Source: Leptolyngbya sp. PCC 6406 (GTDB lineage: Bacteria > Cyanobacteriota > Cyanobacteriia > Phormidesmidales > Phormidesmidaceae). Taken from it: a stretch of DNA of 64,000 bases. Under the pieces are notes generated by a model, which searched no databases, was not told where the DNA came from, and worked only from the letters and a program-made list of their open reading frames with translations. Position numbers and translations under genes: made by a program. The stretch is from the NCBI RefSeq assembly GCF_000332095.2, contig NZ_KI913949.1, forward strand, positions 2,120,587-2,184,586, read 5' to 3'. Every line of letters begins with the position of its first letter. Position 1 is the stretch's first letter. Of this stretch, positions 10,598-26,891 are shown piece after piece.

Positions 10598-12250
10598 TTA
10601 ATTCGTAATTTCTATGTTCAATCCATCAGGATTTGCGAAGTTCAGGATAGCGTCGTCGGTATGGCACCAGTTAATTCCCCTGTCATCATAGGAGAGGGCT
10701 GAGGGAGAGTCGCTATCGGTATAGAAAATCCCTAGCACATCATAGGTCGCACAGTCGCCTGAGGCAGTGGCGCTAATCGGAATTAAAACAACAAAATCTT
10801 CACTAGGGCCAAGATCAAACATGAGCTGATCCAGCCCCCAAGTCTCTGATTCAGAGGGACTAATATACAACTCAGACAAAAACATATCTGTGGTGTTTTG
10901 TATCGTCACTCGTTGGGTCGGTCCGTTGCCAATGGGGATTTGTTCAGTATTGCAGAGATCTACTGTTGTCACTGTTCCTTGATAAACGTCCCTCTCGGTC
11001 AGTTCCCCACTAATATCCACCCCTTCTGCAAGAAAAAATCCGGTTATATCAAAATCACATTGACTCAGATCAGGGCTGACTAAAGATAGGGGAAACTGAA
11101 AATGCTCATAGGGGCCGAGATAGACTTGTCCCAGTAAATCAATCTGGTTCTCTACTGTTGTAGGCTCACCTGCCGGAGCCACTACTAATGCCAACACCGT
11201 AGAGTTGTTGGTGTTAATGACCCGAATGAAGCTGTCTTCTGGATGGTAGAGATCGTTAGGCAGAAAGACAATAGCGTCCTCTTCTGCCTCCAGAAGGCAT
11301 AGATCCATGAGCCAGAATGTCGCCTGTCTTGTTAGTGTCCCATCGTCACCGGCAGGAGCAAACAGCCCCGCGACATCATAGATACAGTCGTCCCCAGAGT
11401 AAGGAACCGCAACGTCAACTACTTCCTGATCAGGAATGGGTTGATAAAGGAAATCTTCTCCCCAGGTATCACTGGCGCTGGGGGAGATATACAGAGACAG
11501 CAAGTTTTGGCCGGAAAAGTTAAAGACGGGTACCTGATACGCGAAGGTCTCTTCTAAGGTGTCGAGAGTTTCGGACAGAAAGACAACTGCCTCCGCTTCT
11601 GCCTCCAGAAGGCATAGATCAATCGGCGACAAGATGGCCTGACTTGTCAGTGTCCCATCACCACCGGTAGGGGCAAACAGTCCCAAGACATCATAGTTAC
11701 AGTCGTCCGCAGAGAAAGGAACCGCAACGTCAACGACTTCCTGATCAGGAATGGCCTGATAGAGGAGATTTTCTCCCCAGGTATCGCTGGTGCTGGGGGC
11801 GATATACAGAAACTGCAAATCTTGGCCGGAAAAGTTAACGACGGGCACTTGATACGCGAAGGTCTCTTCGAAGGTGGCGAGAGTTTCGGGCAAAAAGACA
11901 ACCTCCGCTTCTGCCTCCAGAAGGCATAGATCAATCGGCGGCAAGATGGCCTGACTTGTCAGTGTCCCATCACCACCGGCGGGGGCAAACAGCCCCAAGA
12001 CATCGTAGAGACAATCCTCTCCATTGCGTGGGACTGCAACGAACATCTCTTCCTGATCGGGAATAACCTGATAGAGGAGATCTTCTCCCCAGGTATCACT
12101 GGTGCTGGGGGCGATATACAGGTACTGCAAGTCTTGGCCAGAGAGGTTGGAAACTGGCACTTGGTACTCGTCGGCTTGGGCAGCAAGGGCGAATCCCCCC
12201 CACATCAACCCGCCTAAAATCGCACCCTGGACATAACCATACTGAGTCAT
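10598..12250 (-). CDS. Secreted protein made of five tandem repeats
   Basis: This is a 550-aa protein. The start at 12250 was chosen because it gives a signal peptide (MTQYGYVQGAILGGLMWGG...AAQA); the frame is open further upstream but there overlaps the TIR gene. The mature part is five copies of a module of about 95 residues. Each carries NxSGQDLxxLYIAPS and DTWGEDLLYQ, then DCxYDVLGLFA and IDLC. Two Cys per module sit near DC.YD and DLC and could form a disulfide. Modules 1-3 are nearly identical in protein and DNA; modules 4 and 5 are diverged. The pattern resembles a widespread uncharacterised domain of secreted bacterial proteins. The gene begins 76 bp after the triple-TIR gene, so the two probably form one leftward unit. 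Function is unknown; binding or adhesion at the cell surface is a guess. Confidence 0.75.
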   Translation of the reverse strand: MTQYGYVQGAILGGLMWGGFALAAQADEYQVPVSNLSGQDLQYLYIAPSTSDTWGEDLLYQVIPDQEEMFVAVPRNGEDCLYDVLGLFAPAGGDGTLTSQAILPPIDLCLLEAEAEVVFLPETLATFEETFAYQVPVVNFSGQDLQFLYIAPSTSDTWGENLLYQAIPDQEVVDVAVPFSADDCNYDVLGLFAPTGGDGTLTSQAILSPIDLCLLEAEAEAVVFLSETLDTLEETFAYQVPVFNFSGQNLLSLYISPSASDTWGEDFLYQPIPDQEVVDVAVPYSGDDCIYDVAGLFAPAGDDGTLTRQATFWLMDLCLLEAEEDAIVFLPNDLYHPEDSFIRVINTNNSTVLALVVAPAGEPTTVENQIDLLGQVYLGPYEHFQFPLSLVSPDLSQCDFDITGFFLAEGVDISGELTERDVYQGTVTTVDLCNTEQIPIGNGPTQRVTIQNTTDMFLSELYISPSESETWGLDQLMFDLGPSEDFVVLIPISATASGDCATYDVLGIFYTDSDSPSALSYDDRGINWCHTDDAILNFANPDGLNIEITN

Positions 12251-12326
12251 CGGTAAACCTAAACCTTTATAAGAATCAAGAACGTGAAGCTGATCTTCAG
12301 CCGCTTGCCACCTTGGGGGGTGTGGT

Positions 12327-15300
12327 CTAGCTGGATTCAGCCGGTTGGGAGGGGCGGATTTTGCGATCGCAACGACGGCGATCGCCCTGAGTAATCTTGG
12401 GACTCTGGCGCAAATAGGGCTGAATCCGCTCACAAGCTCGGGTCAGCACCGTATCCAGGGAATCAATCGGCCAGTGACGGGCGGTGCCATTGTCTGCAAT
12501 CGTGGTCAGGACTTGACCATCGGCACTCACCTTGGCCGAGATAATGGCGGCATTATAGAGCTGATACTGACTCAGCTCCTGCCCCTTCAGGTTCCACAGA
12601 CGCGCTGAACCATCCCGAGAAGTGGTGACCAAACGGTCTGTCCCACTGACAAAAACCACACTGGTCACATCCCCCCGATGCCCTTCCAGTTCCCCCATTT
12701 GCTTACCAGTGCTCACATCCCAGATTTTCACCGTGCGATCCTTAGAGGCCGTTGCCAACAGCGCCCCATCATGACTAAAGGCTGAGGCTTCGACCCAATC
12801 CAGATGGCCCTTGAGCACCTGCTGAAGGCGGCCATCTCTGGACCAAACCCTGACCGTCTGGTCTGTGGAACTGGTGGCCAGGGTTTGGCCATCGGGACTA
12901 AAGCTGATATGGCCCACCCAACCGGAATGCCCCTCAAAGCTGGCTAGAGCCTTACCCTGCAATGTCCAGAGCTTGGCTGTCCCATCCGCAGCACTAGTCG
13001 CCAGTTCAGCGCCATCGGGGCTAAATTGCAAGGCGGCAAGGTAATTGCCGCCATGGGCTTGAAACTGCTCCACCAACTGCCCCTGCAAATTCCACAGGGA
13101 TACCGTGCCATCCCAAGTGCCCGTAGCCAGGAGATCCGTTGTCGGGCTCAATACCGCTCCCCTCGCCCCAGCTTCAGACGGCAAGGTCGCTATTAATTGA
13201 GCCTCCCGATCCCACAGCTTGACACTGCCATCGCCGTGCTCAGCCAGAACGTAGCCCGCCTCCCCCTGCAAGCGCATATCCCGAATCTGGGCATCCTCAG
13301 GTATCTCTAGCGTCGCCCGGGTTTCCCGAGACAGATCCCAAAGCCGTACTGTGCGATCGTCAGAACCGCTGATCAGGCGCTCCTCGTCAGCACTCATCCG
13401 CACCCGATACACCTGAGCCTGGTGGCCAATCAACGCCAGGGGTTCAGACTCGTCTAAGTTCCAGGCCACCACTCGGCCATCATCGTAGGCAATGGCCATG
13501 GTCTGCCCCGTAGCCGCTAGATCAATATCCATTACATAGCCATCTAGAGGCCATTGCCGTAATTCGTTGCCCTGCAAGTCCCATTCCCGTAGCGTCTGGT
13601 CCCAGGCAGCCGTAAATACAGAGGTCGCATCGGGGCTAAAATGGGCCGCCAATACTTCTCCTTCCCCATGGGGCAATTGGCGGTAGCGTTGCTCCTGCAA
13701 ATTCCAGAGATGGGCCAGACCATCGTCGCCATAATCTGTTGCAATCACATGCTGTCCATCGGCACTGATCTGGACATCATTGATTACCCCGCCCTGGGTG
13801 GATAGGGTTTGCAGTCGCTCACCCTCCGTTGACCACAGGTAGACGTTGCCCGTTCCAGAAGCCGTCACGATGTGCTGTCCACCCGAACTCACCCCCACCC
13901 GAACCATCCACTCCCCAGGGATGTCAAAATCCGCGATTCCCTCGCCCGCCAAGGTCCAAGCCTGAACGGGCTGGCCCTCGGCTGCGGTGAGAAGAGTCTG
14001 ACCATCGGCACTGAACTGGACTTGAAAAACCTGCTCCTCAGAGATGGAAAACGTCCTGATCCGGCTCTGAGAGACCATATCCCAAACCTCGACAGTACCG
14101 TTCCGGTTCCCGATGGCCAGATAGCGTTCATCGGGGCTCAGATCGATGGCATAGATAGGAGCCTCCCCTTCGATGCGATTGTGTTCCTGAACCTCTTGCT
14201 CCGCCTGTCGCAACACCCCAGAGATCTGACTCTGCAAATATTGGGGAGGAAAAAGCCACATCTGCTGAAGTTTGAGCCCCGCCAAGGAGCTGGCCACCAG
14301 TGCCTCAAAAGGCTGGTTATCCCGCAAATTAGCTTCGGCCTCAATGGCCAAGGACTGAATCGCATGGACCTGGGTAGCCCGCCACTCAATTCCGGCCACC
14401 AATACCAGTACCGAGATCAGCGGTGCCCCAATCGCTGTCATCAAGGTCAGGCGCTGGGAAACACGGCGGGCCTTGGCTTCTTGCTCCGCCCGTTGCTCCG
14501 CCTGCCGACGGGCCTCCGCCTCCGCCTGTCGCTGGGCTTCGGCGGCCTCAGCCAACTGCTGGGCCTGCTCTAGTTCCCGTTGGCGACGGGCTTCCGCCTC
14601 CTGTTGCAGGCGATCGCTGAGGGCTTGACTGGTGGTGATAAACGCCTTTTGCAGCGCCGTGGGTGCAGGTTGCTTAGCCCGCTCCTCGGCCATCTGGAAC
14701 CAGTCTTGGGCAATCACCAACTCCGTTCCCCGCAGAAGCAGATCCTCAGTTTGTGCTTGGGCCTGCCATTCCAGCGATCGCTGGGACCACTTGGTGTGAC
14801 CATGGACATGGTCGCGATCGGTGTCCAGTGTCCGGATCAACTCACTGAAGGTACTCAGGAACTCAGTACTATCCGGTCGGAAATCAATCCAGGGCACCTG
14901 GGCCAATTCTGGGGGGAGGGCTGCCCCATCGATCCCCTGCCACAGCACCGTCACCACCCGCTTGTTGAGCTGGGCCGCATAGTCCACCTGATCCAGACAA
15001 CCGTTAGCCTGCACCGCCCGAGGCGATAGGACAACCACAATGTTGTCCGACATCTCAATGCCGCGATCAATCTCCGGCTGCAAGTCCTCACTGGCCGTAA
15101 TGCTCTCCTGATCAAACCAGGTTGTCTTGCCCTGGGTTTGCAAGGCATCATTAAGCTGACGGGCAAAGTCTACATCCGTCGGCGAGTAGGCAATAAAGAC
15201 ATCCAGCGACGTTGCCGGGGGCTGACGCAGGCTTTCTGCAATGTACGCTTCAGTCAGGGGGGTAGGCAGATTCTGGGTTCGTTGCCTCGCCACCTTCAGC

Positions 15301-16517
15301 CAAGCCTCCGCCCTGCGCAGGTCGTATCCCCGTAGCAGCAGACTGGCATTATCGTTCTGCTGTTGCCATTTCAGGGCTCGGATCAACAACCCCTTATGCT
15401 GGCTGTAGTAGTCAGCATCCTGACGCAGAATTTTGACCAACTGACTTTCATCCAGCCAATAGTCCTGCTCCTCTACATTGTCCGTCAGGTCAATGTAGTG
15501 CAGCTCCCGCAAAACCGTCGGCACCACCTCGGGATCCGTGGCCGTCACCAATACTGGAATCACCCGCTTATTGAGAGACAGGGCATAGTTAAGCTCCTGC
15601 TGGCAAAAGGAAGACTGCAAAGAGTCCGGAGACAGCAGATACACCAGATTATCCGCCTGCTCAATCCCCCGCAGAATCGCTTTCTCAAAGGCTTCACCCG
15701 TTTGGATATCGGTGGTATTGGTCCAAACGGTAAACCCCTCCCGCCTGAGGCTATTGCGGATTTTCTGCATCACCGCCTGATTCTCTTGGGCATAGGACAG
15801 GAATACCTGAGTCATCAGGCTGTTGGCCTGTTTGATGCTTTCCGTGATGTACTCACAGTGCAAATCCGTCGGAAAACAGGGGGGTTGTTCCTCCTGAAAT
15901 CGAGTCGTGAGCCAAGCTTCTCCCTGTTGCCGCTCCTCACCGATGAGCAGATAGCGCGACTGTTTTTGACCCCGCTTCCAGGTCAGCGCCCGATCTAGCA
16001 AATAGGTGTGCTGATGCACATAGGCATGATGGCGCTCCATCAACCCCAGCAAACCCGTCAGCGCCTGATCAAAATCGTCCATCCCCTCCCGGAAATAGAC
16101 CCAGTTGATCTTGCCAATCTCCGGGTGCATATTCGCAAAGCTAGAATGCAACCCCTTGGCTGTATAGGCGTCCCAATCCCCATCGCTCCCGTGGGGATTG
16201 CGCTGCTGCCAGATCTCGCGGCTAATCTGCTCAACATGGAGTAGAGGAATGATGCGCTTGCGGCATTTCAGGGCCAGCTCCACCTCCTTGCCACAGTAGG
16301 GAGAGTTCACAGAGTGGGGAGCAATAATAAAAAGGAAGTTATCCGATGCTTCGATCCCCGCATCAATTTGATTTTGAAAATCCACCCCCAGGGGAATATC
16401 TTCAAAGTCAAACCAGACCTTGCGATCGCGCTCAATTAAATGCTGATAGAGTTTAGCGGCAAAAGCCTTGCTATCGGCCCGCCCATAGGAAATGAATGCA
16501 TCCTGAAATACCGCCAT
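12327..16517 (-). CDS. Triple-TIR, transmembrane, 14-WD40 repeat protein
   Basis: This is a 1396-aa protein. TIR domains begin at about residues 5, 236 and 438. Each is followed by a recurring linker with ALxW, LLxG and AWL motifs. The αC motif carrying the NADase Glu reads C-G-K-E (C75, E78) in TIR1, C-Q-Q-E (C305, E308) in TIR2 and C-L-D-Q (C507, Q510) in TIR3, so TIR3 has lost the Glu. A charged Ala/Glu/Arg coiled coil (635-685), one membrane helix (about 690-710) and 14 WD40 repeats (about 765-1350, enough for two seven-blade propellers) follow. The tail resembles other cyanobacterial WD40 signalling proteins. No NACHT or other NTPase domain is visible. TIR domains act as NAD-consuming enzymes or scaffolds in bacterial immunity. 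The TIR part should be cytoplasmic if the propellers are outside, or the reverse. Neighbours are a SLATT-lysozyme fusion upstream and a secreted repeat protein downstream. Confidence 0.88.
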   Translation of the reverse strand: MAVFQDAFISYGRADSKAFAAKLYQHLIERDRKVWFDFEDIPLGVDFQNQIDAGIEASDNFLFIIAPHSVNSPYCGKEVELALKCRKRIIPLLHVEQISREIWQQRNPHGSDGDWDAYTAKGLHSSFANMHPEIGKINWVYFREGMDDFDQALTGLLGLMERHHAYVHQHTYLLDRALTWKRGQKQSRYLLIGEERQQGEAWLTTRFQEEQPPCFPTDLHCEYITESIKQANSLMTQVFLSYAQENQAVMQKIRNSLRREGFTVWTNTTDIQTGEAFEKAILRGIEQADNLVYLLSPDSLQSSFCQQELNYALSLNKRVIPVLVTATDPEVVPTVLRELHYIDLTDNVEEQDYWLDESQLVKILRQDADYYSQHKGLLIRALKWQQQNDNASLLLRGYDLRRAEAWLKVARQRTQNLPTPLTEAYIAESLRQPPATSLDVFIAYSPTDVDFARQLNDALQTQGKTTWFDQESITASEDLQPEIDRGIEMSDNIVVVLSPRAVQANGCLDQVDYAAQLNKRVVTVLWQGIDGAALPPELAQVPWIDFRPDSTEFLSTFSELIRTLDTDRDHVHGHTKWSQRSLEWQAQAQTEDLLLRGTELVIAQDWFQMAEERAKQPAPTALQKAFITTSQALSDRLQQEAEARRQRELEQAQQLAEAAEAQRQAEAEARRQAEQRAEQEAKARRVSQRLTLMTAIGAPLISVLVLVAGIEWRATQVHAIQSLAIEAEANLRDNQPFEALVASSLAGLKLQQMWLFPPQYLQSQISGVLRQAEQEVQEHNRIEGEAPIYAIDLSPDERYLAIGNRNGTVEVWDMVSQSRIRTFSISEEQVFQVQFSADGQTLLTAAEGQPVQAWTLAGEGIADFDIPGEWMVRVGVSSGGQHIVTASGTGNVYLWSTEGERLQTLSTQGGVINDVQISADGQHVIATDYGDDGLAHLWNLQEQRYRQLPHGEGEVLAAHFSPDATSVFTAAWDQTLREWDLQGNELRQWPLDGYVMDIDLAATGQTMAIAYDDGRVVAWNLDESEPLALIGHQAQVYRVRMSADEERLISGSDDRTVRLWDLSRETRATLEIPEDAQIRDMRLQGEAGYVLAEHGDGSVKLWDREAQLIATLPSEAGARGAVLSPTTDLLATGTWDGTVSLWNLQGQLVEQFQAHGGNYLAALQFSPDGAELATSAADGTAKLWTLQGKALASFEGHSGWVGHISFSPDGQTLATSSTDQTVRVWSRDGRLQQVLKGHLDWVEASAFSHDGALLATASKDRTVKIWDVSTGKQMGELEGHRGDVTSVVFVSGTDRLVTTSRDGSARLWNLKGQELSQYQLYNAAIISAKVSADGQVLTTIADNGTARHWPIDSLDTVLTRACERIQPYLRQSPKITQGDRRRCDRKIRPSQPAESS

Positions 16518-16677: not shown

Positions 16678-16959
16678 TTACTGGCTAAAGGAATTGCTAT
16701 TGGTGGGGGCTGCCATGCCCACGGTGGCAAGGCGCTGAATCAACAAATGCTGCTGCTCAATAATGGATGTGTGTTGCTGGGATAGGGCAATCATGGAGGT
16801 AATTGAATCCTGTTGTCGTTCGGCAAAGAGACGCAGTTCTCTGACCTCTGACCTCAGCGCCGTCAATTCTTGAACGAGGGGGTCAGGGGTAGGCGCGAGT
16901 TGGGGCTCGGGGGCCACGTCTATCGTTGATTCAATGCCAGTGTCAATTGCGGTTTCCAT
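16678..16959 (-). CDS. Small coiled-coil protein
   Basis: This is a 93-aa acidic protein. Residues about 25-80 form a coiled coil (VQELTALRSEVRELRLFAE and a following Gln/His-rich segment). There are no membrane helices. Its ATG shares a base with the TGA of the SLATT-lysozyme gene (TGATG junction), so the two are translationally coupled and very likely partners. I do not recognise a family. By analogy with small genes downstream of lysis genes it could modulate the large protein, but this is inference only. Confidence 0.65.
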   Translation of the reverse strand: METAIDTGIESTIDVAPEPQLAPTPDPLVQELTALRSEVRELRLFAERQQDSITSMIALSQQHTSIIEQQHLLIQRLATVGMAAPTNSNSFSQ

Positions 16960-18527
16960 CAGACCATCCTCTTTTTTGCACGCTGAACATACTTGTCAAA
17001 CACATCCCAGCCGTGATAACCGCCATTGACGAGCTTGCGGACCCGTCGCCAGTCGCCAGAACGGGCCGCTGTGGACACCCCCCGCTCTTTGAAATAGCAG
17101 GCTAAAACCAAGGCAGAAACGTTGGGATCCATGGCTAAATCGGGGTTGTTTTCCAAATCCACCCCCAACTTTTGGCCATAGGTTTTGTAATTGGCCCGAC
17201 CGGTTAATTGCACATAGCCCCGCCCATGGTATTTCACCCCGTCGCCGGGATGAACATTGCCCAGATCCTTGCGGCCTTCGTAGCGCTTCCAGTAACTTGC
17301 GCCCCCCCATTCATGGACTGGCTTGAAGCCGCCGGTTTCCACTCGCACGGTGGCCAATAAGCCCACCAGGGTTTGCTTGTCTAGAATGTCGTACTTGTGC
17401 ATGGCGGCCAGAATACCCGGTAGGTAGGTCTGGCAATCCCCTAGGGGACATTCCAGGATGTGGGCTACGTCCTCCGGTTGAATCAGTTGGGGAACGGGAC
17501 CAGAGGGCGCAGTACTGGCTCCATTACCCACGGAGGGGCTGCTGCTTTTTGTGGCGGTGATTTGGCTGGCCAAAATGGCCTTGAGAGCCTCAATATCAAC
17601 GGTTTCTTCCCAGTCCAAGGCTGCTGCCCCCAGGGGGGGCAAATCTGCCGCTGCTACCGCTAGGGTGGCGGTAGCAGTTGCAGGTGGGGCGGATTGGACT
17701 AGGGCGGTAGTGGCCTCCTGACCATCAGCATGGGTGGTGACTGGGAAACTGGTTTCCCCCTCAGGGGGGAACGAAGTTCCGCCATTTGCTGAGACCAGGG
17801 CTTGGACTGGAGTTGCGGCCAGTGTCTGGGCCACTACCGCCTCTGTGGCCATCTCTGCCGCCGCCTGCTGTTTGGCGGCGGATTCTTCGGCCAGCCGCTT
17901 TTCAATGGCCTCTAATCGCTGCGCCCGCAACTCCAGCTCTTGATTGAGGCGAGATAGCGCTTTCTCGGTATTCTCAACCGCTGTTTGGGCGTCCTTTTTG
18001 CCATCGTCCTGCTTCTTCTCTAACCGCTCTACAAAGCTTTCCAGATCCTGTTGAATAAAGTATTCCACCCGCTCCGCAAAAATTGGGTAGGCATCTTCAG
18101 CGGTGGGATATTCACGGTAGGGACCGGTGAGCTGCATGTACTGCCATCCCTCAATCTTGAGCGCTTCAGCCGTATTACGATAGTGGCGATACTTTTCCCC
18201 GTGACTAAAAAATTCCTCCACCGCTGCCGAAATCGCGACCGTCTGACTGACTCCGAAGGCGACCCAAGTGATGGCTTCTTGGAACCTGGGACGATCGGGA
18301 CTGCGGAATCCTACCATGGCAGGGACTAAGACTCCCCCAATAATGGTCACCATCCGTAGAAAGTAGTGCTGATTGCGCTCCTTTGTAGCTCGACCTTCGA
18401 GCCATAGAACCTGGTCTAGCCAGCGATTCTTAATGAAATCCTTGTGCAACTCCGACAATGTCAACCGATCGACAAGTCCCCCCAAGGTTTGCTTGAGGTA
18501 TTGCGCATAGCTATTCTTCTTTGCCAT
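16959..18527 (-). CDS. SLATT (DUF4231) membrane domain fused to a GH19 lysozyme/chitinase domain
   Basis: This is a 522-aa fusion. Residues about 30-160 match the DUF4231/SLATT pattern: RWLDQVLWLEG, RNQHYFLRM, helix 1 (58-74), helix 2 (86-104), then EKYRHYRNTAEALKIEGWQY. A coiled coil (155-225) and an Ala/Thr/Pro-rich linker (225-350) lead to a GH19 domain (365-522) with ATVRVETGGF (candidate catalytic Glu397), KYHGRGYVQLTGRANY and NGGYHGWD. GH19 phage-type enzymes cleave peptidoglycan. SLATT domains are predicted pore-formers linked to bacterial conflict systems. There is no signal peptide, and two helices leave the lysozyme domain on the same side as the N-terminus. ATG 18527 was chosen over an upstream TTG at 18584. 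It is coupled to the 93-aa gene and sits upstream of the triple-TIR gene. The fusion resembles a holin-endolysin in one chain, which is inference. Confidence 0.82.
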   Translation of the reverse strand: MAKKNSYAQYLKQTLGGLVDRLTLSELHKDFIKNRWLDQVLWLEGRATKERNQHYFLRMVTIIGGVLVPAMVGFRSPDRPRFQEAITWVAFGVSQTVAISAAVEEFFSHGEKYRHYRNTAEALKIEGWQYMQLTGPYREYPTAEDAYPIFAERVEYFIQQDLESFVERLEKKQDDGKKDAQTAVENTEKALSRLNQELELRAQRLEAIEKRLAEESAAKQQAAAEMATEAVVAQTLAATPVQALVSANGGTSFPPEGETSFPVTTHADGQEATTALVQSAPPATATATLAVAAADLPPLGAAALDWEETVDIEALKAILASQITATKSSSPSVGNGASTAPSGPVPQLIQPEDVAHILECPLGDCQTYLPGILAAMHKYDILDKQTLVGLLATVRVETGGFKPVHEWGGASYWKRYEGRKDLGNVHPGDGVKYHGRGYVQLTGRANYKTYGQKLGVDLENNPDLAMDPNVSALVLACYFKERGVSTAARSGDWRRVRKLVNGGYHGWDVFDKYVQRAKKRMV

Positions 18528-18931: not shown

Positions 18932-20122
18932 ATGGACTTGACCCTTAAAACCCTTCAGTCAGAGTACGCCAAGACCTTTGAGACCTGTACCATTCGTCAG
19001 GAAGTCGAGACATTGGTGAAGGAGGTGGCCGATCGCTTAGTGGCTTTGCGATCGCACTACGAAGCCGTAGAGCAAGCCACTGGCATTCCCTGGTGGTTTG
19101 CAGGCATTCTCCACTACCGAGAGTGGAACTTTCAGGAGCCCGCCCTATTTGAGCGCCAGGTGATCGAGGTGCTGATGGCTAAGAAGTATCACCAGGCCAA
19201 AACCCGGACCCTAGGAGCCTATCTGTGGGGATTTGACCTGTGGAATGGCTTTCGGGATGGTGCTGGCAGCGCCTCCCGGTGGGTTTGGGGCGGTTCCAAC
19301 GTCCTAGAGCAGGCTACGGAGCAACTCGGGGCGGCCACCCTCCTCGTTCACCTACAAAACCAAAATGTTGTTGATATTGCCCCTAAAAAAGCCATTGATC
19401 TGTTGGTCCTGACCGACACCCTATTCAAGATCAAGCCTGATCAGAGTTTCCGCTTGCCGGAGAGCGACAAACTGTTGGTGGCGGCGGGTACCCGGCTCCA
19501 GGTACTTCAGGACGCTCCCGCCGAGAGTGGCCATGTTAAATTCCGAATTCCCGATGGGGTATTGATGGGGCAACAGAACCGCTATGAGTGGTACGTGTTT
19601 AGGGAGCACATTCAGCTAGAGGGGACGACTCCCGACAACAAGCCCCAGGATCCCCCCGTTGAACCAGAAACTAAAATTGCCCAACCTGATCGCGGTCGCC
19701 CCATTACCGTGCCCAAGTTGGGAACCGTCTACTTAGGGGAGCCCATCCTCCCCAACGGCCACTTTAGTTGGGCCGAGGCGACGAAAAACGGCAGCCGCAT
19801 CCCAGTGGATGAGAAGGTGGTCAATGGCATTCTCAAAATTGCGGAAGTCATGGAGGAGGTACGGGACTTCCTCGGCGGGCGTCCAATCACCATCAATTCC
19901 TGGTATCGGGATCCAGCCAGCAACCGCAAAGTGGGTGGAGCCAAGGACTCTCGCCACATGTATGGCGATGCAGTGGACTTTGTCGTCCAAGGAATTGCCC
20001 CCCCAGAGGTGAACCGCCGCCTAGAGTCCTGGTGGAGCAATCGGGGTGGACTGGCTAGTGCCAGTAGCTTTACCCACATTGACGCACGCGGGTACCGGGC
20101 GCGCTGGCGCTACGGCTTCTAA
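18932..20122 (+). CDS. Lysozyme-like domain fused to an M15 D-Ala-D-Ala carboxypeptidase-type domain
   Basis: This is a 396-aa protein with three parts. Residues about 20-125 resemble the bacterial lysozyme-family domain with the pattern GIPWWFAGILHYRE, Glu64 being the candidate catalytic acid. The segment after it differs from typical members, which carry an HNGDPL motif there. Residues about 165-230 look like an SH3b-type wall-binding module. Residues 290-396 form a Peptidase_M15 domain with zinc-ligand pattern SRHMYGDAVD (His342, Asp349) and THID (His382). Such M15 enzymes cut peptide cross-links. No signal peptide is visible, as in phage endolysins. It is divergent from the SLATT-GH19 gene across a 400-bp control region. 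The domain calls are solid for M15 and good for the lysozyme part. Confidence 0.78.
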   Translation: MDLTLKTLQSEYAKTFETCTIRQEVETLVKEVADRLVALRSHYEAVEQATGIPWWFAGILHYREWNFQEPALFERQVIEVLMAKKYHQAKTRTLGAYLWGFDLWNGFRDGAGSASRWVWGGSNVLEQATEQLGAATLLVHLQNQNVVDIAPKKAIDLLVLTDTLFKIKPDQSFRLPESDKLLVAAGTRLQVLQDAPAESGHVKFRIPDGVLMGQQNRYEWYVFREHIQLEGTTPDNKPQDPPVEPETKIAQPDRGRPITVPKLGTVYLGEPILPNGHFSWAEATKNGSRIPVDEKVVNGILKIAEVMEEVRDFLGGRPITINSWYRDPASNRKVGGAKDSRHMYGDAVDFVVQGIAPPEVNRRLESWWSNRGGLASASSFTHIDARGYRARWRYGF

Positions 20123-20325: not shown

Positions 20326-21546
20326 CTAGCGTGCGGCAGATGTCTTTGCCCCGACTAGATGGTAGATGGGCATATAGCCCTTACCCTTCACCAACAGTTC
20401 TCCCCAGGGCTCAAAATCAAAATCCTCCTTCAGCCGTTCATAGGTGGCCCCCGTCACCTGAATCTTGCCTGGAGTACCCTGAGCCTCCATACGACTGGCC
20501 ACATTCACCGTGTCCCCCCAGAGGTCATAGCTGAACTTCTTGATACCGATCACCCCCGCCACCACATCACCGGTATTGATGCCGATACGCAGTTGCAAGG
20601 GCTGACCATCATGGCGAGAAAACTGCTGAATTACCATCTGCATTTCCAGGGCCATCTGCACCACGGCTTGGGCATGGTCAGGCTGGGGTAGGGGTAATCC
20701 TCCAACTACCATGTAGGCGTCACCAATGGTCTTGATCTTTTCCAGGCCATATTTTTCCGCCAGAAGATCAAAGGCAGAAAAGATTTGATTCAGCAAGTTC
20801 ACCAATTCCAACGGGCTCACCGCCGCCGCCAGGGGGGTAAAGTTGACAATGTCAGCAAATAGCACCGTAGCCTCCTCAAATCGCTCCGCCAGAGATCCTT
20901 GAAACTGCTTGAGCTGATCCACAATGGCACGCGGCAGGATATTGAGTAGCAGTTGCTCCGACTTTTGCTGTTCCAAACGCAAAGCCTTTTCCATCTGCTG
21001 CCGTTCCCAGACTTCGGCCTGGAGTTTCTGGTTTTGGTCCTGGAGCTTCTGGGCCTGCTGGTGAAGCGTGCGCTGCAAGCTAGCGAGCAGAGGAATCTGG
21101 CCCCCAGCGGACAAGGCGCGCTGGGTCTGATACTGAAAACGATGGTGGAGGCGCGCAGTGGTTAAATGACTCTGGATGCGGGCCACCATTTCCTCTACCA
21201 AGAAGGGGTGGGCGACAAAATCAACACCACCTACGGCAAAGGCTCGGAGGCGGTCTGCGCTGCAATCACCTGCTCCGGTAAATAACACAGGTATCCGACT
21301 CAGGTGGCTCAGCTTTCTGATTTGTAGGCACAGGTCAAAGCCACTCATACCTGGTAGCTGAGTTGCTAGCACCACCACATCGGGTTTAAAACTGGACAGC
21401 AGGGCTAGGGCCTCCTGTCCGGATTTTACCTGCTGCACCTGGTGGCCGATAGCGGCTAACTGGGGCAGTAAAACGGCATATGTCTCCTGATGGGCATCAA
21501 TGATGAGCAAAGTACCCGTCGGACCATCGACGGTGGAACAAGACAT
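20326..21546 (-). CDS. Class III adenylate cyclase with a degenerate receiver domain
   Basis: This 406-aa protein makes cAMP. The N-terminal part (about 12-130) has a receiver fold but has lost its key residues. The acidic pocket reads IIDAH instead of the usual pair of Asp, the phospho-acceptor position reads VVLATQLPG (Ala for Asp), and the conserved Lys before PF is His (AHPF). A coiled coil (about 145-215) precedes the cyclase domain. There FADIVNFT and GDAYM carry the metal-binding Asp residues, the Lys in EKIKTIGD and the Asp in SYDLWGDTVN indicate ATP rather than GTP, and NVASR supplies the transition-state Asn and Arg. Alternative starts at 21693 (ATG) and 21843 (GTG) extend the frame, but the residues are not receiver-like. 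The input is unlikely to be phosphorylation. Confidence 0.85.
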   Translation of the reverse strand: MSCSTVDGPTGTLLIIDAHQETYAVLLPQLAAIGHQVQQVKSGQEALALLSSFKPDVVVLATQLPGMSGFDLCLQIRKLSHLSRIPVLFTGAGDCSADRLRAFAVGGVDFVAHPFLVEEMVARIQSHLTTARLHHRFQYQTQRALSAGGQIPLLASLQRTLHQQAQKLQDQNQKLQAEVWERQQMEKALRLEQQKSEQLLLNILPRAIVDQLKQFQGSLAERFEEATVLFADIVNFTPLAAAVSPLELVNLLNQIFSAFDLLAEKYGLEKIKTIGDAYMVVGGLPLPQPDHAQAVVQMALEMQMVIQQFSRHDGQPLQLRIGINTGDVVAGVIGIKKFSYDLWGDTVNVASRMEAQGTPGKIQVTGATYERLKEDFDFEPWGELLVKGKGYMPIYHLVGAKTSAAR

Positions 21547-21902
21547 AGAAGTTGTAGCGCTAGAGGCGAAGGCTGTCACGCCCCGATCCTTCTCTCGCGA
21601 GAAGGTCAGGCAGCGAGGATCTGCTGTCCCGTCGGCTTGCTCCAGAGACCGCTGAAAATTGACAGTCGGTAGATGCGTCCCAAAATGTGCCATGGTTTCA
21701 TGCCCCCCAAGTATGCCCAGGGTTGATCGGTAACGGGAAATAATAGTTAGGTCCGTTACATTGACCGCACTGGAAAATATGCTCTCAATTCCAGTGGGCA
21801 AGGGCGATCTCCCTGATCTGCTGTCAAACCTTACGACAATCACGACGACTTATCCGGACAGCCGTCATTCTGAGTTAGGGCAGAGGGTTATCTAGGAATG
21901 CT

Positions 21903-23993
21903 CTAGGTCCGCAGCGCCTCCAGGTTGGGCCGGACCTTAAGGCGGACGATTACCGTCGTAATGTTATCGTGGCCATTGTGCTCGTTGGCAAGATCAATGA
22001 GTTGGGAAACCCCTTCTTCTAGGTCATGGCGCGATCGCAGTAGGGGCTCCACATGGGTATTGACATGGTGCTCTAGGAGATCATTGTCGCTAAGACCATC
22101 GGAGCAGAGGATTAGCAGCATATCCTCCATGACCTCTAGGGTAGTGATGCTAGGAACCACATCCCGACTGTCTCGGGGACCCAGAGCCTGGGTTAGCTGG
22201 TAGGCATCGGGGCGGGCATAGGCAATGGCGGGTTCCACCCCCCGCTGGATTTCTCGCTGACCTACCTCATGATCTACCGTAACCTGCTGGAGGCCCTGGC
22301 GGCGGGTCCAGCGATAGAGGCGGCTATCGCCAACATGGGCAATAGAGACTCGGTTGTCCTGAAGCAACACCAGCACCAAGGTAGTACCCATGCGGCCACT
22401 GCCGACTTTTCCCTCCAATTCGTTCTTGTCAAAAATAACCTGATTAGCCTGAGCGATTGCATCCCGCAGGGCTGACTCCGCAGGCAGAGTCTCCTGCCAA
22501 TGCTGGTTAAAGTAGGCTTCTAGGGTGGAAACGGCTAGGGCGCTGGCCACCTCGCCCCCAGCGTGGCCCCCCATGCCATCGCATAGGATGTAGAGCCCCC
22601 GTGCCTTGAGGGTAGGGCCTGTAGGTAGGTTGGTTTTTTCCAACCAGGTTTGGGCAAAGAAGGTATCTTCGTTGTGATCTCGCTGGCGACCCACATGGGT
22701 CCGACCGGCCTCATCTAGCTTAAAGAGCTTCATGGGCAGAGCCATGGTGGGTAGATCGGCGAAGCCCGCGTCTTCCCCTTGGGTGGTGTCGTCAACGTCT
22801 TCGCCGGAGACATTGGTATCGGGAAAGTTTGCCATCAGATCTTCGTCGGAGATCATGTCGGCAGAGAACATCCCATCTGCGTCGGAGTCTAGATCCGCTA
22901 GATCCAGATCCCCCGGATCCAGATCTAGCGGATCTAGATCATCCTCTGGTGGTTCCTGGGTTTCTAGGTCACCACTGTCCAAGTTTGGCAGGTCTGGTAG
23001 GTCTGGCTGATCCACAGCCTCGACCATGCCATAGGGAGGGTCCGTCTGCGGATAGTCATTGGGATTGACAATCTCAGGGGAAAGCCCTTCCCCGGACTGG
23101 AGTTGATCGGCGATCTCTGCTAGGGCCTCCTGCACCCGCTTAATTTGGCTCAGGTTGCCACTGGCCAGATCCGCAGCCACCACCAACACTGGGGCCAAGG
23201 CATCGGCGGCGGCGTGGGTTGTTGTGGACAATAGGGTTTGCCAACAGTGGCCCAGGGCCTCTAGGGTAGGGGCGGCATTTTCCGGCGTATAGGAGATCCG
23301 CTGCAAACAGAGAATCTGGTCGTCATCAATGCACAGGTTTTCAGGCTGGAGGAGGCTGACTTGTCCACCCCAGGGCGTTAGGGCCTGCCACAGCTCTGTC
23401 ATCTCATAGAGCCAGTGCACCACCTCTAGGGGTTCCAGCTCGTCCCCATCCCATGGATCGGCCAGGGAGCGCCAGGTGGAGCGATCTTCTAAAATCAGAA
23501 TGGTATGGTTGTCCTGCTGCCAAGCGGCGTGGAGGTCTGGAATTGCTGAGAACAGGCGGCTTTGCAGTTCTAGATAGGGTGCGGCTAGGGGGGGCAAATC
23601 CCTTAAGAGGGCGGCAGTAGCAGCGGGGAAATCGGTATCCTCCAACGCCGCTTGGGCCTGGGCCAAGGGTGATGCCATCCCCGGTTGACAGTCAATCACC
23701 CCCACAACGATTTCTTGGTCGAGGATCTGATGGGCATCGACCGAGCGTTGGAGTTGGTAGCGATGGTCAATGTCTAGGTAGCGATCACCCGTGAGCCAGT
23801 CCTTGAGTTGTAAGGACTGGACGGCCACCTTTTGACCCAAGCCTTCAGCAGCGCCTTCTCCCTCGTCAACGGTATGGGGATGCGAAGGTACTGGAATCAG
23901 GACCGCTTGGAGAGGTTTGAGAGGACTGCCACAGCTTTGGCAAAATCGATTGGAGGAGGGGTTCTCAAACTGACACTGGGGACAGACGAGCAT
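21903..23993 (-). CDS. PP2C-type Ser/Thr phosphatase with an N-terminal zinc ribbon
   Basis: This is a 696-aa protein. A zinc ribbon is at the start (CPQCQFENPSSNRFCQSCG, four Cys). A region of about 300 residues of unclear fold follows, then an Asp/Leu-rich linker (motifs LDPLDLDPGDLD and DLADLDSDAD), then a PP2C domain (about 430-690). The PP2C metal-site motifs are all present: GRQRDHNEDTFF, ILCDGMGGHAGGEVAS, AHVGDSRLYR, CSDGLSDND and EHNGHDNITTVIVRL. It should dephosphorylate Ser/Thr residues and could oppose kinases of the type at 176-2119. The middle region (STWRSLADPWDGDELEPLEVVHWLYEM-like spacing) may be a kinase-like or scaffold domain. It is leftward, as is the cyclase gene 357 bp downstream. 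Confidence 0.88.
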   Translation of the reverse strand: MLVCPQCQFENPSSNRFCQSCGSPLKPLQAVLIPVPSHPHTVDEGEGAAEGLGQKVAVQSLQLKDWLTGDRYLDIDHRYQLQRSVDAHQILDQEIVVGVIDCQPGMASPLAQAQAALEDTDFPAATAALLRDLPPLAAPYLELQSRLFSAIPDLHAAWQQDNHTILILEDRSTWRSLADPWDGDELEPLEVVHWLYEMTELWQALTPWGGQVSLLQPENLCIDDDQILCLQRISYTPENAAPTLEALGHCWQTLLSTTTHAAADALAPVLVVAADLASGNLSQIKRVQEALAEIADQLQSGEGLSPEIVNPNDYPQTDPPYGMVEAVDQPDLPDLPNLDSGDLETQEPPEDDLDPLDLDPGDLDLADLDSDADGMFSADMISDEDLMANFPDTNVSGEDVDDTTQGEDAGFADLPTMALPMKLFKLDEAGRTHVGRQRDHNEDTFFAQTWLEKTNLPTGPTLKARGLYILCDGMGGHAGGEVASALAVSTLEAYFNQHWQETLPAESALRDAIAQANQVIFDKNELEGKVGSGRMGTTLVLVLLQDNRVSIAHVGDSRLYRWTRRQGLQQVTVDHEVGQREIQRGVEPAIAYARPDAYQLTQALGPRDSRDVVPSITTLEVMEDMLLILCSDGLSDNDLLEHHVNTHVEPLLRSRHDLEEGVSQLIDLANEHNGHDNITTVIVRLKVRPNLEALRT
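22888..22938. repeat. Near-perfect palindrome inside the phosphatase gene
   Basis: Arms of 24 nt (22888-22911 and 22915-22938, two mismatches) are built from GATC/CTAG words and encode the Asp-Leu-rich linker of the phosphatase. The transcript could fold into a long hairpin, and the palindrome may expand or contract. Confidence 0.65.
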
Positions 23994-26135: not shown

Positions 26136-26891
26136 ATGGGGACTTGGATCAAGGAAACGGACACAGCCATCTACCTGATGCAGGGCGGGTACTGGATCTC
26201 ACGGATTACGAAGTATCCCTCCAAGACCAACCCCAAGGAGAAGGTGGTGAATATCTCCGGGATGAAAGCCTGGTTTACCCGCTCCGATGCCCCCCAAGCG
26301 ATGACGGTTGCCTATGACAACGGACCAGAACCCCCGGCCCTGCCGCCCCCACCCCCGGCACCCCCAACCCCTGTGCAATCCATGCCTAATACGACCCTGC
26401 CCACCCCATCCACGGAGACCAGTGCCACAGGAGCAATTAATGCGGCAGGGCTAAAATTGATCAAAACCTTTGAGGGCAGAGAGTTGCGGGCCTATCAAGA
26501 TTCCGTCAAGGTGTGGACCATTGGCTATGGCCATACCTCCATGGCGGGTCCACCAGAGGTCACGCCTAATATGACCATCACGGCTGAGCAAGCGGAGGAG
26601 ATTCTGAAGCAGGATCTGAGAAAGTTTGAGCAGGGTATCCGCGATCGCGTTAGCGTCACCCTCGACAGCAACCAATTTTCGGCCCTCGTCTCCTTTGCCT
26701 TCAATGTGGGTCTGGGAGCCTTTCAAAACTCCACCATGCGCCGTCTGCTCAATAGCAGGGACTACAATGGGGCAGCCAATGAGTTTCCCCGGTGGGTCAA
26801 GGCCGGAGGCCAAACACTCCAGGGCTTAGTGCGCCGCCGCAATGCGGAACGCGCCCTATTTCTGGGTCAGAACTACAGCCAGTTTCTCTAG
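26136..26891 (+). CDS. GH24 (T4-type) lysozyme with an N-terminal module
   Basis: This is a 251-aa protein. Residues about 1-70 form a small domain of unknown type (GGYWISRITKYPS). A Pro-rich linker (about 68-92) leads to a T4-type lysozyme domain (about 100-250). The catalytic pattern is clear: FEGRELRAYQD with Glu and Asp, VWTIGYGHT with the Thr, then DSNQFSALVSFAFNVG and RRRNAERALF. Such endolysins hydrolyse the glycan backbone of peptidoglycan. No signal peptide is present, so export would need a holin-like pore or cell lysis. It is monocistronic and the third wall hydrolase in 10 kb, with no phage structural gene nearby. Confidence 0.85.
   Translation: MGTWIKETDTAIYLMQGGYWISRITKYPSKTNPKEKVVNISGMKAWFTRSDAPQAMTVAYDNGPEPPALPPPPPAPPTPVQSMPNTTLPTPSTETSATGAINAAGLKLIKTFEGRELRAYQDSVKVWTIGYGHTSMAGPPEVTPNMTITAEQAEEILKQDLRKFEQGIRDRVSVTLDSNQFSALVSFAFNVGLGAFQNSTMRRLLNSRDYNGAANEFPRWVKAGGQTLQGLVRRRNAERALFLGQNYSQFL

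Follow-up and report, generated by a model that had tools for sequence, protein, structure and literature searches.

A DUF4231/SLATT membrane domain fused to a GH19 endolysin domain, a candidate self-lysis effector linked to TIR and LSDAT genes in cyanobacteria

SLATT proteins have been predicted to act as nucleotide-responsive pore effectors and are found together with TIR (PMC7159879). Predicted conflict systems of the SLOG-SLATT type go back to Burroughs et al. 2015 (cited by PMC7159879 and PMC13143021). In Thoeris, the TIR protein ThsB is combined with the SLOG-containing ThsA or with macro-domain effectors, and SLOG effectors are switched on by TIR products (PMC11204291). The MHR1/2 region of TRPM proteins, which corresponds to LSDAT, binds ADP-ribose in TRPM2 (PMC13143021). 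Both TIR/SLOG/SLATT predicted conflict modules and peptidoglycan-attacking effectors are already described (PMC7159879). We found no description of DUF4231/SLATT fused to peptidoglycan hydrolases, or of a SLATT fusion with interchangeable wall hydrolases, in a literature search that did not cover the founding 2015 paper, so the absence is unproven.

Here we analyzed a window (the whole stretch of DNA under study) of 64,000 nucleotides from Leptolyngbya sp. PCC 6406. On its minus strand, a 522-codon reading frame (16959–18527, with the ATG at 18527, the TGA stop at 16961–16959 and 0 internal stops) encodes a DUF4231/SLATT-coiled coil-linker-GH19 protein of 522 aa, as given by Pfam, NCBIfam and PHROG matches and by AlphaFold2. 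The SLATT/DUF4231 region, defined by domain matches, hydrophobic segments and the model, comprises residues 1–176 (18000–18527). It is followed by a coiled coil (residues 177–237) and a linker of about 105 residues (238–342), predicted to be disordered and poorly conserved in the orthologue alignment, which together span 17502–17999, and by the GH19 endolysin domain (residues 345–522; 16962–17495), placed by Pfam, PHROG, fold and active-site residues. The original prediction, made from the letters alone and without a strand, had proposed these parts in this order within one chain, and our results bear out this layout, with no lesion between the domains. It left out the M15 companion gene, the LSDAT/SLOG partner, the exchange of GH19 for other wall hydrolases and the lack of signal peptides on both enzymes, all described below. 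The AlphaFold2 model has a mean pLDDT of 75, with confident SLATT helices (26–73, 80–107, 109–131 and 143–175), a long helix at 177–237, disorder at 238–342 and a GH19 fold that is confident except for residues 422–431. When compared to the orthologues, both domains are conserved (54–72% identity for SLATT and 58–80% for GH19), whereas the linker is not (15–33%).

Regarding the N-terminal part, residues 38–143 match Pfam DUF4231 with 102 bits (cut-off 24.7, E 2.7e-29) and also Pfam SLATT_3 with 29.4 bits (cut-off 26.3), and residues 31–168 match NCBIfam SLATT_1 with 105 bits (cut-off 41). Besides these matches to curated models, the protein has the two TM helices and the helical extension of the SLATT family, with hydrophobic segments from residues 56 and 85 onward, and its loci show the linkage to SLOG or nucleotide-signal genes (LSDAT, TIR) that is also typical of the family. 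No signal peptide was seen before the TM hairpin. Lysine and arginine are more abundant in the flanks of the hairpin than in its loop in nearly all aligned rows (with no difference in the window protein), and from this bias we take, with moderate confidence, both the N- and the C-terminal ends to be cytosolic. The predicted role of the SLATT part is that of a pore-forming or other membrane effector, and the ‘holin-like’ character given to it in the original prediction is likewise putative. We also noted that PHROG 7395, a phage family of unknown function, matches residues 29–166 (18030–18443, minus strand; E 2.9e-16), which suggests that some phages carry SLATT-like proteins.

In the C-terminal part, residues 429–479 match Pfam Glyco_hydro_19 with 32.5 bits (cut-off 25.5) and residues 344–520 match PHROG 181 ‘endolysin’ (E 1.8e-44). 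The two motifs singled out in the prediction, VETGGF and GRGYVQLTGRANY, are both present, and the orthologues keep them save for a few conservative changes (V/I, F/L, L/I). The active-site residues E397, E406, Y433, Q440, T442 and N501 (roles from PMC12329726) are invariant across orthologues, and the spacing of E397 and E406 is nine residues, as in the catalytic pair E51/E60 of PaGH19Lys (PMC12329726). The best Foldseek match of the modelled domain is 9ms7 (TMt 0.84), followed by 4ok7, 8p8e and 9eoi (solved phage-type endolysins). The domain has both the catalytic Glu pair and the fold of the GH19 endolysin subfamily, and is a predicted muramidase.

The prediction would have been refuted by a fusion unique to this genome with a lesion separating the domains; the fusion was instead found in at least nine other cyanobacterial genomes. 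Orthologous fusions are present in Leptolyngbya Heron Island J, Adonisia turfae, Leptolyngbya PCC 7375, Leptothoe kymatousa, L. ectocarpi, a Cyanothece MAG and a Leptolyngbyaceae MAG, and other DUF4231-GH19 fusions in Coleofasciculus, Moorena and one further cyanobacterial MAG. Active sites are intact in the orthologues where checked. The hydrolase itself changes from lineage to lineage. In Nostocales (Anabaena, Nostoc, Calothrix, Sphaerospermopsis), the fusion partner of DUF4231 is a GH24 lysozyme; a GH24 profile drifted onto the DUF4231 coiled coil and gave way to single-sequence searches. Other lineages present C39-GH19, C39 or a CHAP-like domain; the last is so labelled for a Cys/His motif recognised by eye together with a weak match to a PHROG endolysin, and matches no Pfam model. 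In an even sample of 386 cyanobacterial genomes, which also underlies the LSDAT co-occurrence counts below, 26 have a strong DUF4231 gene, with 31 such genes in all, and eight of these 31 carry a fused wall hydrolase. The DUF4231 tree requires several gains or losses of the hydrolase, and the GH19 domains of the C39-GH19 fusions (few sequences) lie about 5 substitutions per site from the other GH19 domains, a distance that suggests a separate acquisition. At two loci (L138 and L151) the parts are found unfused, in the order DUF4231, C39-GH19, C39, TIR-WD40. In Moorena (L127 and L139), two DUF4231 genes, one with GH19 and one without, are interleaved with a pair of similar TIR-WD40 genes, a local duplication accompanied by gain or loss of the hydrolase.

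None of 1244 phage records covered 80% of the fusion query, a scan of viral contigs matched only the GH19 piece and never the whole fusion, and no plasmid-borne copy covering 80% of the query was found. The window locus lies near housekeeping genes and not in an obvious island. A prophage origin or a phage lysis cassette was rejected on the basis of these neighbours and of the phage searches.

Downstream of the fusion lies a gene for a protein with three TIR domains, a coiled coil, one TM segment and WD40 repeats (12327–16517, minus strand). Between both genes there is an ORF of 93 aa (16678–16959, minus strand), whose ATG overlaps the fusion stop (TGATG) and for which we found neither a domain match nor a homologue in the other loci. 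A 611-aa repeat protein (10598–12433, minus strand) overlaps the end of the TIR-WD40 gene and is possibly part of the operon. Recurrence beside TIR or other defence genes, proposed originally as a check, was indeed observed: of 42 loci, 14 have TIR genes no more than 9 kb away, where 1.66 would be expected (P 1e-10, with domain counts serving as an upper bound for genes and phylogeny below genus level left uncorrected), and many loci are without a nearby TIR gene. Beside other fusions we found TIR-WD40 orthologues or TIR-CHASE2 forms, so that the sensor part of the TIR proteins is either WD40 or CHASE2. The TIR domains match ThsB models, and most of them retain the SxxCxxE glutamate, a position at which the third TIR domain of the window gene carries Q. 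The window genome also holds a second DUF4231 gene (L045 6945–11096; G000:C1, about 552 kb), which encodes 259 aa with no hydrolase and is 232 bases from a TIR-WD40 gene.

On the other side, and divergent from the fusion, domain matches identify a companion gene (18932–20122, plus strand) for a protein with a helical N-domain, an SH3-like middle and an M15 peptidase, on which we saw no signal peptide or TM segment. Most loci that have flank keep the M15 companion next to the fusion. Across loci, the companions share the helical N-domain, followed by M15 or another endolysin C-domain; a fold search with the companion model gave weak SH3 and M15 matches, and none for the N-domain. Endolysins of PHROG 28234 combine GH24 with M15, and those of PHROG 33083 combine GH24 with the other companion C-domain. 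According to these pairings, the fusion and its companion look like halves of a modular endolysin. Next to the companion are a response-regulator/guanylate-cyclase gene and a zinc-ribbon PP2C gene (20326–23993, minus strand), for which no conservation as neighbours was seen. A GH24 lysozyme gene without signal peptide (26136–26891, plus strand; 169 bits) lies 7.6 kb from the fusion, and a relative of it adjoins a DUF4231-C39 gene in locus L044. PADLOC has no model for the fusion.

Unbiased neighbour clustering ranked LSDAT_prok, a TRPM-type SLOG domain, first among the neighbours, with 44 of 76 loci (contig ends hide neighbours in several MAGs). LSDAT_prok is present in 25 of the 26 strong-DUF4231 genomes vs 4 of the 360 others (P 5e-34); at genus level, DUF4231 and LSDAT go together in 17 of 18 genera, with 1 and 2 exceptions (P 7e-19), phylogeny being handled in these P values at genus level only. 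Such near-obligate co-occurrence suggests that SLATT is regulated. A single LSDAT gene is present in the window genome, about 3 Mb from the fusion locus, and no other gene of the system was seen in its 19-kb stretch. In genomes G004, G017 and G032, LSDAT adjoins the TIR-WD40 gene instead. Three Microcystis/Xenococcaceae loci (L140, L142 and L145) have another protein between TIR-WD40 and DUF4231, where LSDAT would be; in L142 and L145 it contains ‘FLFSGHMID’ near its start, and it is possibly another ligand sensor.

With the architecture, its conservation, the intact catalytic residues, the hydrolase swaps and the TIR/LSDAT linkage observed, we give about an even chance to the fusion being a cyanobacterial self-lysis effector in a predicted nucleotide-signalling system of the conflict or immune type. 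In the scheme that we infer for TIR product, gating, pore, lysis and purpose, the TIR protein, anchored in the membrane and carrying WD40 or CHASE2 after its TM segment, would sense an insult and make an NAD-derived signal of the ADP-ribose type. The LSDAT/SLOG protein, encoded elsewhere in the window genome, would bind this signal, and the SLATT/DUF4231 part would oligomerise and breach the inner membrane. The tethered GH19 domain and the M15 companion could then reach the peptidoglycan, so that the cell would lyse and the infection or damage be contained. Given the predicted cytosolic ends and the lack of signal peptides, the enzyme would have no access to its substrate before a membrane breach, as in holin-endolysin lysis. 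The same location counts against self-lysis, since a hydrolase predicted to be cytosolic needs a large lesion to access the wall; so do the unlinked LSDAT of the window genome, the many loci with no TIR gene nearby, the many DUF4231 proteins without a hydrolase and the lack of a PADLOC model for the fusion.

One could argue that the protein serves regulated wall remodelling or developmental cell death (necridium formation, filament breakage) instead of defence, using these parts and this lysis logic but with a developmental or envelope trigger acting through WD40/CHASE2. The position of these sensors behind a TM segment suggests envelope sensing, most hosts of the fusions are filamentous or colonial cyanobacteria, and the surroundings in the window are those of housekeeping genes. 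Even so, we find this explanation unlikely, as the patchy spread (26 of 386 genomes) and the shuffling of components look like conflict systems, and as Microcystis, unicellular or colonial, retains TIR-WD40 and DUF4231, though without the fused hydrolase. It is also rather improbable that SLATT is an anchor only, parking a domesticated phage endolysin at the inner membrane until a phage holin or damage opens it. The near-obligate partnership with LSDAT implies regulation of SLATT, and hydrolase-less DUF4231 proteins have the same partners; on the anchor's side, the GH19 domain is phage-like (PHROG 181, and a Synechococcus phage endolysin 46% identical to it), signal peptides are absent and the linker is long and flexible.

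The Foldseek list for GH19 also holds the T6SS effector TseP (8xcl), with a GH19-like fold, as would fit an antibacterial effector that is secreted or delivered as cargo of a T6SS or contractile injection system, with SLATT helping it to cross. We regard this as very doubtful: next to the fusion we recognised neither an injection-system gene nor an immunity gene, and its conserved neighbours are TIR, LSDAT and M15. Finally, phage-like enzyme domains would also be expected of a chance fusion or a prophage lysis-cassette remnant without present function, a reading that is hardly credible for a fusion conserved in ten genomes, with the active sites, phage searches and neighbours described above. 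Returning to self-lysis, we propose more tentatively a whole class of one-chain cellular lysis effectors with a logic like that of ADP-ribose-gated TRPM2, in which a TIR signal would be read by an LSDAT sensor and a SLATT pore would carry the endolysin. If true, nucleotide-gated SLATT effectors and holin-endolysin lysis would be joined in one protein, and immune signalling would end in programmed lysis from within. With DUF4231 and LSDAT co-occurring as tightly as they unexpectedly do, the predicted gating of SLATT by ADP-ribose can be tested directly.

Compared with known systems, the locus resembles the SLOG-SLATT predicted conflict systems, where a 2TM SLATT has a SLOG partner and often a nucleotide enzyme such as TIR. 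It differs, as far as the citing papers portray those systems, in a SLATT to whose C-terminal side several lineages have added a peptidoglycan hydrolase, and in a separate companion hydrolase. With Thoeris it shares the signalling logic of TIR enzyme and SLOG ligand sensor (PMC11204291, PMC7272460). Unlike in Thoeris, the SLOG is a TRPM-type LSDAT in a separate gene, the effector is SLATT plus a wall hydrolase, and the TIR domain comes in several copies joined to WD40 or CHASE2; the domain search found no ThsA effector (Sir2-SLOG or macro) in the fusion, the companion or the TIR gene. The EAD1-linked lysozyme and papain-like peptidoglycan peptidase effectors of multicellular prokaryotes likewise attack peptidoglycan in conflict systems rich in cyanobacteria, but these are coupled through the adaptor domain EAD1 (PMC7159879), whereas here the fusion to the 2TM SLATT is direct. 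Phage lysis systems (holin-endolysin cassettes, PHROG 28234 and the GH19 endolysins SPN1S and PaGH19Lys) are alike in the membrane lesion, which here is a predicted one, the signal-less wall hydrolases, the GH19 active site and the pairing of glycosidase with peptidase; in contrast to them, the fusion sits on the chromosome and not in a phage, holds its parts in a single chain and is linked to a predicted TIR/SLOG signal.
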